A stretch of DNA of 64,000 nt, from NCBI RefSeq assembly GCF_014642835.1, contig NZ_BMJA01000001.1, positions 493,656 to 557,655 on the forward strand, given 5' to 3'. The stretch comes from Dyella nitratireducens. GTDB lineage: Bacteria; Pseudomonadota; Gammaproteobacteria; Xanthomonadales; Rhodanobacteraceae. This document shows, piece after piece, positions 1 through 57,993 of this stretch. The translations under genes and the position numbers were made by a program. Numbering within the stretch: the stretch's first letter is position 1; the number at the start of each line of letters is the position of its first letter. The notes below the pieces were generated by a model. That model worked only from the letters and a program-made list of their open reading frames with translations. It was not told where the DNA came from and searched no databases.

Positions 1-100
1 GTAGTGTTGAATGGGCTGGCAAACATAGAGACTTCGGTTGAGTGGCAGATGCCTGTCTAGAGCGCGGCGAATTTTCCCCAGACAGCAATGGGCGAAGGCC
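1..100. repeat. Right part of a dispersed repeat element (TIR element)
   Basis: This stretch matches the right-hand ends of the copies near 32080-32167 and 51595-51679 (shared landmarks: TGGCAGATGCCT, then ATTTTCCCC, then the end GACAGCAATG at position 90). Directly after the end comes GGCGAAGGCC, the core of the local palindromic repeat. The left end lies outside the window. No coding sequence is supported here. Confidence 0.7.
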
Positions 101-8284: not shown

Positions 8285-8402
8285 GTCATTCCGGCGAAGG
8301 CCGGAATCCAGTTCAAAAACGCGGTGCGAAGCACTCAACATAAGAAGTGTTGTGTCCTTCGGACGCATGTTTAAACTGGATTCCGGCTTTCGCCGGAATG
8401 AC
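8285..8402. repeat. Long-form palindromic repeat (about 118 bp)
   Basis: Outer arms GTCATTCCGGCGAAGGCC... and ...GGCTTTCGCCGGAATGAC enclose a longer middle with CGAAGCACTCAACATAA. The same long form recurs at 9573-9692, 10617-10733 and 51281-51391. In the 331 bases between the HEPN-like gene and the XAC0095-like gene, only repeats are seen. Confidence 0.85.
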
Positions 8403-8506
8403 GACTCGCTTCGACATTGCATTGACATAGCTGCGGATTTCACTGGAAAAGCAGGCAAAGACGTGGGGATGCCTCAGAACCCAGCACCGTTCTTCCAGCC
8501 CCATCG

Positions 8507-9572: not shown

Positions 9573-9692
9573 GTCATTCCGGCGAAAGCCGGAATCCAGT
9601 TCAAATACGCTGTGCGAAGCACTCAACATAAAAAAATATCGTGTGCTTCGCACGTCATTTTTTAACTGGATTCCGGCTTTCGCCGGAATGAC
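9573..9692. repeat. Long-form palindromic repeat
   Basis: Member of the 118-bp form: GTCATTCCGGCGAAAGCC arm, middle with TGCGAAGCACTCAACATAA, then GGCTTTCGCCGGAATGAC arm. It lies between the SDR remnant and the GST gene. Confidence 0.85.
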
Positions 9693-9886
9693 GAGGGTTG
9701 GGTCTCTGGTAGTTGAAGCATCCCTAAGTTCGGATGCGTTGGACCGTTGAAACCCTGCGAAAAATTGCCTCTACGTTGCAACCCGTCACGTTTGTTACTC
9801 CCACCTTTCGAGTACTCGACGGCAATCTCTCTCGATCGCCGAGCATCGGAAACAACCGATCACGGCACGACACGAGGAGAAATGGC

Positions 9887-10540: not shown

Positions 10541-10616
10541 GAGGTTGAGGTATTTCCACGTTTCCCGCTCAGCGGCACCCAAAAGTCGAAGAGATAGATG
10601 CGTGATGCCCCTGCTC

Positions 10617-10733
10617 GTCATTCCGGCGAAAGCCGGAATCCAGTTTAAACATGCGTCCGAAGGACACGACACTTTTATGTTGAGTGCTTCGCACAACGTA
10701 TTTGAACTGGATTCCGGCTTTCGCCGGAATGAC
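10617..10733. repeat. Long-form palindromic repeat
   Basis: 117-bp member with the middle in the opposite orientation to the 9573 copy (it reads TTATGTTGAGTGCTTCGCA). It lies between the GST gene and the convergent VOC gene. Confidence 0.85.
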
Positions 10734-12703: not shown

Positions 12704-12879
12704 GGGTATCTATCGAAGGATGGATGCGTGCACTCTGGCGGCATGCCTGCTCGGCGTCTTGCAGGATGATGCGAAATGGATGTGTGGTGTGCCGAGACGG
12801 ATGATGGGTGTAGTTGCCTGACGTCATTCCGGTGAAGGCGCACTGCTGTCCGACCAAATTTTCAGTTCACTGGATCTGC

Positions 12880-13002
12880 TCCCTCCCCTACGTGCAGTAG
12901 GAGAGGGTTGGGGTGGGGTGAAGCAACCTCGCGACGAACTCAAACGTGGCGGCAAGCTCGCACAACCCCTCCCCAGCCCTCCCCTGCACGCAGGGGAGGG
13001 AG
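12880..13002. repeat. G+C-rich inverted repeat of a second family
   Basis: CTCCCTCCCCTACGTGCAG...GGAGAGGGTTGGGGTGGGG in one half and ACAACCCCTCC...CTGCACGCAGGGGAGGGAG in the other. The same family occurs at 57804-57958. Just before it, a CACTGCTGTCC end of the TIR element abuts a palindrome arm (12840). The whole 423-bp gap upstream of the NTF2-like gene is repeat material. Confidence 0.75.
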
Positions 13003-22308: not shown

Positions 22309-22420
22309 GGAATGATTTCCCTTGTTGATCTGTCGGCGGCTTGAATATAGCGCTCTCGCGGCATGCCAAGCATCAATGCTCCGAACGTGGGATTTCCGAG
22401 CGGCGGCGTCTTGCCTCGCC

Positions 22421-22519
22421 GTCATTCCGGCGAAGGCCGGAATCCATCGCCAGTACGAAGCATGGATTCCGGCCTTCGCCGGAATGACGGTGAGGTGCTA
22501 CGAAACTTCCCCGGACAGC
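22421..22519. repeat. Palindromic repeat plus a TIR-element end
   Basis: Positions 22421-22488 are a 68-bp palindrome identical in every base to 41547-41614. Just beyond it, CTTCCCCGGACAGCAGTG (ending at 22519), the right end of the TIR element, abuts GGCGAAGGCC. The rest of the 436-bp gap holds no gene. Confidence 0.85.
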
Positions 22520-22744
22520 AGTGGGCGAAGGCCGGAATCACGATGCGTTCTGCAAATGGCATCGATGTGAACATCAAGTCCGAAGCATTGAGCCAAGCAC
22601 TGGCAAGGAGAAATATCCCTGGATAAATTAGCGCCGCCAGGCACAGCAGCCATTGACGCTGAGGCAAAGGCCCCTTGGAAAACCCCAGGCCACGGACTGC
22701 ATCGATTCCAAGACTTCGATCACTCACGACCGACAGGAACCCTT

Positions 22745-26790: not shown

Positions 26791-26940
26791 TTTCCCCAGG
26801 TTTTTCGAGCTGTTCAAGGATGGGCTTTTTTGCGGCCAATACTTAGCATTTTTACCTCGGCGTCATTCCGGCGAAGGCCCACTGTTGTCCGGGGAAGTTT
26901 CGTAATACCTCACCGTCATTCCGGCGAAAGCCGGAATGAC
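26791..26940 (+). repeat. Module B, palindrome arm and TIR-element end, copy 3
   Basis: Module B (26791-26861) runs into a palindrome arm (GTCATTCCGGCGAAGGCC at 26862), which is cut by CACTGTTGTCCGGGGAA (from 26880), the left end of the TIR element. A second palindrome follows at 26915-26940. The order matches what would result from insertion into the palindrome arm. Confidence 0.75.
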
Positions 26941-26948
26941 GGTGAGGT

Positions 26949-31872: not shown

Positions 31873-32189
31873 GTCATTCCCGCGAAAGCGGGAATCCATT
31901 TTGCTCTAATGCATTCATGAAAATGGATTCCCGCTTTCGCGCACTGCTGTCCGGGGAAAGTGCTGCTTGTTCTAGCGACATGGCTAAAAGACTCGTCGTC
32001 CCGGCGAAAGCCGGGACCCAGCGACTTGTAGATCGTCAAAGACACTGGACCCCGGCGTTCGCCGGGGCGACGAATCGCTAGCGTTGAATTTGCTGGCAAA
32101 AATAGGGGCTTCGATTGCCTGGCAGATGCCTATCTAGAGCGCGGCGAATTTTCCCCGGACAGCAGTGCACTTTCGCGGGAATGACGACC
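31873..32189. mobile_element. Palindrome interrupted by a TIR element, copy A
   Basis: A palindromic repeat (starting 31873) is interrupted in its right arm at 31941/31942. The inserted part, 31942-32167 (226 bp), begins CACTGCTGTCCGGGGAAA and ends TTTCCCCGGACAGCAGTG, a near-perfect terminal inverted repeat. CGCTTTCGCG (31932-31941) before it is repeated as CACTTTCGCG (32168-32177) after it, like a 10-bp target duplication with one change. The interior has another hairpin (CCCGGCGAAAGCCGGG, then CCCCGGCGTTCGCCGGGG). No ORF; a non-autonomous element. Confidence 0.75.
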
Positions 32190-41479: not shown

Positions 41480-41546
41480 GATGAGCTCCTACCGGCCGTC
41501 ATTCCAGGAAATCCAGGGTTACTCTGACTCCATTGCGAAGCGAATC

Positions 41547-41614
41547 GTCATTCCGGCGAAGGCCGGAATCCATCGCCAGTACGAAGCATGGATTCCGGCC
41601 TTCGCCGGAATGAC
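41547..41614. repeat. 68-bp palindrome identical to 22421-22488
   Basis: Same bases in all 68 positions as the copy 19 kb away, including the asymmetric loop (CGCCAGTACGAAG). Followed by a degenerate AGCATGGAGATACCTCG (41685), similar to the CGTGGGGATACCTCAG terminus of modules B and C. Confidence 0.9.
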
Positions 41615-41706
41615 GAGCCGCTCTGAAGCAGCATTGTCGTGAACTTCGATTTTCCTACCGAAACAAATGCAAAAGCATGGAGATACCTCGGGCGCTGGCC
41701 TCGTTC

Positions 41707-51208: not shown

Positions 51209-51280
51209 GAAAGGACTCCGGCAAGCACGTGTGGGGGGCAGTACGTTAGCACCAGCAAGGGAGCCTTGCATTAGCTCGTC

Positions 51281-51697
51281 GTCATTCCGGCGAAGGCTGG
51301 AATCCAGTACAAACATGGCGTGCGAAGCACGCAACATAAAAGGGTATGAGCGCTTCGCACAGCGTATTTAAACTGGATTCTGGCCTTCGCCCACTGCTGT
51401 CCGAGGAAAGTGTTGTTTGTTTTAGCGACATGGCTAAAAGACTCGTCGTCCCGGCGAAAGCCGGACGTAGCGCGAAGCGCGGAGAACGTCCGAATGGACG
51501 GCCCCGAAGGGGTGAGCGAAGCGAATCACCCAGCGACTTGCAAATCGTCAAAGACACTGGACCCCGGCGTTCGCCGGGGCGACGAATCGCTAGCGTTGAA
51601 TGAGCTGGCAAAAATAGGGGCTTCGGTTGCGTGGCAGATGCCTATCTAGAGCGCAGCGAATTTTCCCCGGACAGCAGTGGGCCTTCGCCGGAATGAC
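51281..51697. mobile_element. Palindrome interrupted by a TIR element, copy B
   Basis: A long-form palindrome (from 51281) is cut in its right arm. The inserted part is 51392-51679 (288 bp), beginning CACTGCTGTCCGAGGAAAG and ending TTTTCCCCGGACAGCAGTG. Both flanks are GGCCTTCGCC (51382-51391 and 51680-51689), an exact 10-bp duplication. A 65-bp block (about 51466-51530) is absent from the copy at 31942. No ORF. It fills most of the gap between two divergent peptidase genes. Confidence 0.85.
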
Positions 51698-57671: not shown

Positions 57672-57993
57672 CAGTACTGTCTGGGGAAATTTTGCGAAAA
57701 AAGTAACGAGCACTTGAGGGACAACACGTTTGCATGATTCGCACGGCAAGCGACTTAAAAAAAGCTTGCTCAACGCGATATCCACGAGTGAACCGGAAAC
57801 GGCCCCCTCCCCTGCGTGCAGGGGAGGGTTGGGGTGGGGTAAGGCGAGCGAAGCTCGCTTCCCGCTACGCGGGAATGAGCGTGAGACATCAACGGAATCT
57901 CTCGCCAGGTTGCTTCACCCCACCCCAACCCTCCCCTACTACACGTAGGGGAGGGAGCGATCCGGCAAGCTAAAAGTTTCCCGGACAGCCGTG
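57672..57993. mobile_element. Degenerate TIR-type element with nested G+C-rich repeat, copy D
   Basis: It begins CAGTACTGTCTGGGGAAAT after a palindrome arm (GTCATTCCGGCGAAGGCC) and ends GTTTCCCGGACAGCCGTG before CGCTTTCGCGGG. Inside, 57804-57958 holds a G+C-rich inverted repeat (CCCTCCCCTGCGTGCAGGGG and later CTACACGTAGGGGAGGG) of the same family as 12880-13002. This fills half the 648-bp gap before the cupin gene; the rest is AT-rich, with a GTTATG-N10-CATAAC inverted repeat at 58149-58170. Confidence 0.6.

Follow-up and report, generated by a model that had tools for sequence, protein, structure and literature searches.

A 288-bp element splits a REP in the window

The stretch of 64,000 bp that we analysed (the window) carries an outer pair of CGTC-type REPs (a BIME) at 51280..51697, to which no strand is assigned, and the second REP of this pair is split by a 288-bp element of family A (51392..51679, plus strand). 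The termini of the element, CACTGCTGTCCG and CGGACAGCAGTG, are inverted repeats, and GGCCTTCGCC stands exactly on both sides as the left (51382..51391) and right (51680..51689) copies of a target duplication on the plus strand; the description of this element in the initial annotation is thus confirmed. Intact REP pairs at other places in the window (10597-10732, 8286-8405 and 9574-9694), which no element interrupts, match the joined flanks at 81–84% over 120–138 bp. Folded as a single strand, the element is far more stable than shuffled sequences (z −5.5), as expected from its inverted ends and internal REPs.

The second copy named in the initial annotation, inside a palindrome, lies as described in a REP (31942..32167, plus strand), between the 10-mers CGCTTTCGCG and CACTTTCGCG, which are alike at 9 of 10 positions. 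At 226 bp it is a member of the same family that lacks a 62-bp segment found within the first internal REP of the 288-bp form. This segment of ∼62 bp (51465-51527) has near-identical counterparts in copies of family B (L036 and L044) as well as family A (L010 and L041). Only short overlapping ORFs are present inside the 226- and 288-bp copies, and a search of the window against Rfam gave no match at the gathering level.

A third complete copy in the window had been overlooked. This 322-bp element of family C (57672..57993, minus strand) lies between GTCATTCCGGCGAAGGCC and CGCTTTCGCGGGAATGAC, and its flanking 10-mers, GGCGAAGGCC and CGCTTTCGCG, do not form a direct repeat. Its mutated ends keep it out of the 36-copy count given below. 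The four single ends listed in the initial annotation are present, but are remnants or parts of longer copies. At 90 lies the right terminus of a copy of family A (1..90, plus strand, followed by GGCGAAGGCCGGAATGAC) that begins outside the window, and truncated copies account for the ends at 12841, 22523 and 26880: one of family C with its left end in a REP (12841..13000, plus strand), one of family B with an internal REP pair (22409..22523, plus strand) and one of family B whose internal REP is uninterrupted (26880..26937, minus strand) and which serves below as the comparator for the nested insertion in L047.

Unrelated cores have the same ends

The genome that contains the window (G000) comprises 5.68 Mb in 14 contigs. 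The exact 12-base end CACTGCTGTCCG occurs 64 times in it, compared with 0 for the reversed control, and the 21-base end occurs 70 times when up to 3 mismatches are allowed (control, 0). Within the window, a scan for the 11-mer with 2 mismatches gave 26 matches against a shuffle mean of 20.04, which is near chance (at least 26 in 11 of 100 shuffles). We examined the stretches around all 64 exact ends, a count that leaves copies with mutated ends outside, and paired ends lying 100–700 bp apart. Of the resulting 39 rows, 36 are distinct copies in G000, two (L028 and L040) are double pairings and were dropped, and one (L058) is a copy from Azohydromonas.

The 36 complete copies measure 169–326 bp, with two exceptions at 513 and 565 bp, and were sorted by eye on the basis of their cores into families A (7 copies), B (9), C (15), D (2) and E (3). 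Stretches matched by blastn are common to A, D and E, in part within internal REPs, whereas blastn of B and C against A/D/E gave no match beyond the REPs. At least three unrelated cores (A/D/E, B and C) therefore have common ends, which identifies the elements as MITEs. They are short, have inverted ends, are present in 36 copies in G000, are flanked by a target duplication in 27 of 35 copies and contain no transposase gene, as judged in the two window copies by their short ORFs. The two longer copies contain a GIY-YIG ORF rather than a transposase, as judged by a domain scan for L042 and by eye for L023.

In the first of these, a B-family copy in L042, the ORF (L042:1726-2019) is of 97 aa, matches the GIY-YIG nuclease domain and lies between two internal REPs; the 565-bp copy in L023 resembles it by eye. 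An annotated GIY-YIG gene also lies near an ISRel1-type copy in a Rhizobium REP. In a truncated B copy in L048 (∼1300-1470), the internal REP is broken by what appears to be the beginning of a different IS, whose helix-turn-helix transposase is IS481-like by eye. One-ended transposition was considered as a source of the single ends and dropped, since most of these are truncated copies of families A–D; one (L052) resembles a chance match.

Most copies lie at the dyad axis of REPs

A REP half ends exactly at the element for 58 of the 64 exact ends in G000. The test accepts up to 4 mismatches in 14 fixed positions of any of six REP patterns, and, the patterns having been picked after the flanks had been viewed, the positions of the window serve as the control; 459 of 127,964 such positions (0.36%) pass. 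The six ends that fail are in L026, L032 (which contains N's), L040, L044, L045 and L052. Each passing REP half spans from its outer tag across the loop to the element, and the duplicated 10 bp correspond to three bases of stem, four of loop and three of stem (GGC GAAG GCC or its complement). The initial annotation placed the insertion in the arm of a palindrome; it is indeed within the palindrome, but the point of insertion is the dyad centre rather than merely the arm.

Flanks were compared for 35 copies, with L032 (N's) and L058 (another genus) excluded. The two 10-mers form direct repeats alike at 8 or more positions in 27 of these copies, and at all 10 positions in 13. In another five (L017, L018, L042, L043 and L049) they are inverted, and in three (L009, L050 and L055) the likeness is weak. 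The left and right 10-mers covary: when the right sides were shuffled, none of 20,000 permutations reached the observed likeness, either for all 35 copies or for the 27, and the duplicated 10 bp are therefore local to each site. In addition, one core type is found in differing REP variants, and one copy (L045) lies at a non-REP site with a duplication of 9/10. The concern raised in the initial annotation, that flanks might match only because the element itself holds the palindrome, is opposed by the covariation and by the occurrence of one core in several REP variants.

Given the exact abutment at 58 of 64 ends, the direct repeats in 27 of 35 copies and the covariation, most copies are best read as having inserted, with duplication of the target, at the dyad axis of a REP. 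The original proposal of a non-autonomous element that targets another repeat family and gives nested repeats is supported by the abutment and the covariation, by the match of the joined flanks at 51392 to intact REP pairs and by transposase genes with like ends in other species. In L047, a C element lies within the internal REP of a B element that is itself beside a REP; the uninterrupted comparator, at 26861-26947 of the window, matches at 90% over 87 bp, and the flanking 10-mers are of the inverted kind.

The age of the copies bears on whether this pattern reflects target choice. Median identity is 92.6% within family A, 90.8% within B and 91.8% within C; the single pair in D is 92.3% identical and the median in E is 80.3%. 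Medians of 91–93% in the three large families, together with the many truncated copies and a partner gene that was not found, would suit a set of old relics, inherited and not recently moved, whose pattern reflects survival in REPs and losses elsewhere. We regard this as unlikely, because the closest pairs reach 97.8% identity in A and 99.4% in C (96.4% in B) and the position at 58 of 64 ends is exactly at the axis, which calls for target choice and not mere tolerance.

Empty sites and the symmetry of filled REPs

An empty-site comparator was found in the sequence examined for 11 of 37 queries (the 36 G000 copies and L058, self matches removed), although some of the 11 are weak or themselves adjoin an element. 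The initial annotation looked to empty sites in related strains, and this expectation is realised in part. At the L015 site, the sister species G009 and G014 have the neighbours close together without the element, but the REP is also missing; an orthologous REP lacking the insert was thus not found at this site, the sole orthologous site that could be compared (two sister species). At three window sites, the intergenic flanks are unconserved in the sister stretches compared.

Filled sites differ from empty ones in their symmetry. In the 35 filled sites, GTC tags are two-sided in 19, the combination GTC/TGG is present in 13, and 3 are unclear. Among 15 empty REP cores from the same 210 kb, a sample that is small because the mask also took out free REP pairs resembling family B, 1 is two-sided, 12 are GTC/TGG and 2 are unclear (Fisher p 0.002, or 0.005 for the direct-repeat sites). 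In the window alone, 2 of 17 REP cores are two-sided. Three causes could produce this excess: a preference for fully symmetric REPs, loss of a pair's inner half once the element has inserted, or occasional transport of the REP halves together with the element. The inverted 10-mers fit loss of the inner REP half after insertion.

The third of these options, taken further, would make the REP halves part of the element, so that a composite of REP half, MITE and REP half spreads as a unit; a REPIN mobilised by a REP transposase (RAYT) would be one such case. REP pairs can be mobile themselves. The GTC...GAC arrangement at both outer ends in 19 of 35 filled sites against 1 of 13 classifiable empty cores speaks for such a unit, as do the inverted rather than direct 10-mers in nearly half of the copies outside G000. 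Against it speak the two 10-mers that covary within copies beyond permutation, the presence of one core type in several REP variants, the 9/10 duplication of L045 at a non-REP site, and the ISs with like ends that enter palindromes of their own hosts. We consider the composite improbable.

Copies in other genomes

The 17-base end pattern is present in 5 of 16 genomes of the genus and in 5 of 299 genomes of the order sample, the window genome being counted in both. The 21-base pattern was found in three contigs of two Azohydromonas species and in one Sedimenticola MAG. Ten of the 16 loci outside G000 have two recognisable ends and were analysed. The 10-mers are direct and alike at 8 or more positions in five (L060, L082, L087, L092 and L093), inverted to the same degree in four (L061, L086, L088 and L089) and neither in L058. 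Most of these copies are at REP-like palindromes by eye, and in Azohydromonas and others MITEs with the same ends lie at palindromes of their own. Two copies in one genome (L092:2370-2541 and L093:2505-2754) are apparently one MITE whose core holds a single REP in one case and a REP pair in the other.

Autonomous IS4-family elements with like ends

A viral contig (L104) carries an IS of 1282 bp with the ends CACTGCTGTCCGGTTAAA, a pattern present in 1 of 369 genomes of the class. Its 398-aa protein matches DDE_Tnp_1 and DUF4372 (Pfam) and IS4 (NCBIfam), and relatives on plasmid records are annotated as ISRel1 and ISRm16. The ends are CAGGGCTGTCCGGGGAAAGTT in ISRm16 and CACTGCTGTCCGGTTTAAATTT in ISRel1-type copies, both with 9-bp repeats, and most MITE ends read CACTGCTGTCCGGGGAA with A or G as the next base; the likeness between the MITEs and these ISs extends over ∼13–20 bp. 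DUF4372 was detected at E ≤ 0.001 in 22 of 299 genomes of the order sample.

Some of these ISs lie in REPs. In the family of the window genome, L150 contains a 1297-bp IS with the ends CACTACTGTCCGGAGAA that lies at the axis of a CGTC REP and is flanked by the 10-bp duplication GGCCTGCGGC; L149, from the same order, contains an IS with the ends CACTAGTGTCCGGTTAAA and a 10-bp duplication in a CGTC REP; and a 10-bp repeat flanks the IS of L163 within a REP-like site. The transposase frames of L150 and L149 are open, and all three proteins match DUF4372 and DDE_Tnp_1. These two domains were found in seven of the eight such proteins scanned, and DDE_Tnp_1 only in the eighth (L105). Several ISRm16-type copies lie in palindromes like CCTTCTCCCCGC..GCGGGGAGAAGG. 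Target choice is not uniform: G073 has seven IS copies at sites without evident REPs (9 bp), and L112 and L194 have identical transposases at unlike target types.

A tree of 28 proteins (midpoint rooted, L137 absent) places L150, L149 and L163 with the ISRel1- and ISRm16-type proteins in one group of 15 with support of 98/99, a placement to be read with caution because L150 and L149/L163 are on long branches that join each other. The group contains all eleven REP- or palindrome-inserted copies, plus four labelled non-palindromic. Target palindromy exceeded that of shuffles at p < 0.01 for 9 of 18 IS copies grouped as this type and for 0 of 12 others (1 at p < 0.05), in a test where the centre was free to shift by one base, the IS grouping was made after the targets had been viewed and the L174 target was one base short. 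By the same test, 16 of 27 MITE sites are palindromic at p < 0.01 and 22 of 27 at p < 0.05.

The ISRel1/ISRm16 group of the IS4 family (DUF4372 plus DDE_Tnp_1) thus resembles the MITEs in terminal sequence, in duplications of 9–10 bp and in palindrome or REP insertion for about half of the copies tested. It differs in encoding a transposase and in its length of ∼1.3 kb. Two further differences count against mobilisation of the MITEs by this group: the autonomous ISs are less strict in their targets, and the duplications of ISRel1 and ISRm16 are 9 bp rather than 10. Overall, the MITEs have ends like those of intact members and a duplication of 10 bp, compared with 9 or 10 in the ISs. They are classed as IS4-family (DUF4372) derivatives, and not as ISs, because no transposase gene was found in them or in the 16 genus genomes.

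A proposed mobilisation in trans

A transposase gene with the same ends was named in the initial annotation as possible support; genes with like ends exist in other species, some of them inserted in REPs, but none was found in 16 genus genomes. DUF4372 (PF14294) was not found in these 16 genomes by a search able to see the clade, since it detects the domain in further genera of this family; an L150-like protein was likewise not found in them, in a search that had no positive control; and DDE_Tnp_1 was not found in the window genome. Short N gaps are present in several copies, and loss of the partner gene in assembly gaps is therefore possible. Two single-contig genomes of the genus (G003 and G012) contain the ends, and neither a DUF4372 nor an L150-like gene was found in them. 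No transposase was recognised by eye among the ORFs near the single-ended matches L060, L061 and L059.

These searches are why we infer mobilisation from features of the MITEs and of ISs elsewhere, and they would also be expected if a transposase family unrelated to IS4/DUF4372 moved the MITEs and the match of the ends were convergence. Such convergence seems very improbable to us, given that the end match of ∼13–20 bp, the duplication length and the target habit agree jointly with ISs of several Proteobacteria. The reading we favour, and consider likely, is that the MITEs are moved in trans by an IS4-family DDE transposase of the DUF4372 type and insert at the dyad axis of CGTC REPs with a 10-bp duplication. 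The copies whose flanking 10-mers are inverted or only weakly alike, including the nested case L047, count against it.

Under this model, the mobile units would be cores without a transposase gene held between inverted ends of ∼20 bp, and the transposase, of the type of ISRel1/ISRm16 and relatives, would act on them in trans. It would select the dyad axis of CGTC-type REP palindromes, a symmetric complex presumably reading a symmetric target, and make a staggered cut of 10 bp across the REP loop; repair would then leave a 10-bp direct repeat (GGCGAAGGCC and variants) on either side. The partner gene may later have been lost from the lineage, or may merely have passed through.

The cores carry palindromes of their own

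A palindromic repeat is present in the core of all five G000 families and of all ten outside copies. CGTC REPs occur in the cores of A, B, D and E and in 6 of the 10 outside copies; the C cores and the remaining four outside copies have, by eye, a repeat of the CCCCTCCC...GGGGAGGG type, which is similar to the palindromes that ISRm16-type copies enter. The B core contains a REP pair of 70 bp that is identical (100% over 70 bp) to a free REP pair in the window (41546..41615, no strand assigned). Because the core holds a palindrome of the targeted kind, an insertion that breaks a REP would import an intact palindrome and with it new targets for nesting. We suggest, tentatively, that the elements bring their own landing sites in the form of palindromes targeted by the transposase clade, and could be a vehicle that spreads CGTC REPs.

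Relation to known systems

REPs are known targets of ISs, including an IS4 member (Tobes and Pareja 2006, PMC1525189). That member, ISRm22 of S. meliloti, targets REPs at the axis of palindromy with 6-bp direct repeats according to the same paper; the IS4 family link and the use of the axis are points of likeness to the MITEs, whereas the 6-bp repeats and the autonomy of ISRm22 are differences (PMC1525189). QMITE2 of Coxiella burnetii is a MITE with 7–11-nt direct repeats that carries a REP used as a target by IS1111. A REP carried inside a MITE is common to both systems, but the QMITE2 REP is of the GTAG type and its direct repeats are of variable sequence, and QMITE2 brings a REP whereas the MITEs described here also insert into one (PMC5896051). 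The target type here is that of the CGTC REPs of Di Nocera et al. (2013, PMC3733652), CGTC-tagged palindromes that are mostly paired; according to that paper they lack a transposase dedicated to them, and such associations with transposase genes as exist are fortuitous.

A literature search of open-licence PMC papers gave no description of the present MITE set among the matches listed. A MITE set tied to CGTC REPs, with cores that themselves contain such palindromes, appears to be new, as does the link of a DUF4372 transposase clade to CGTC REPs. These REPs are small repeats widespread in bacteria, and no transposase of their own had been reported for them (PMC3733652). The analysis names a transposase clade whose choice of targets agrees with them, along with MITEs that both enter and carry CGTC REPs. 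The association offers a concrete, testable way in which REPs could be spread or restored, and it illustrates the targeting of a dyad axis within a group of DDE transposases.
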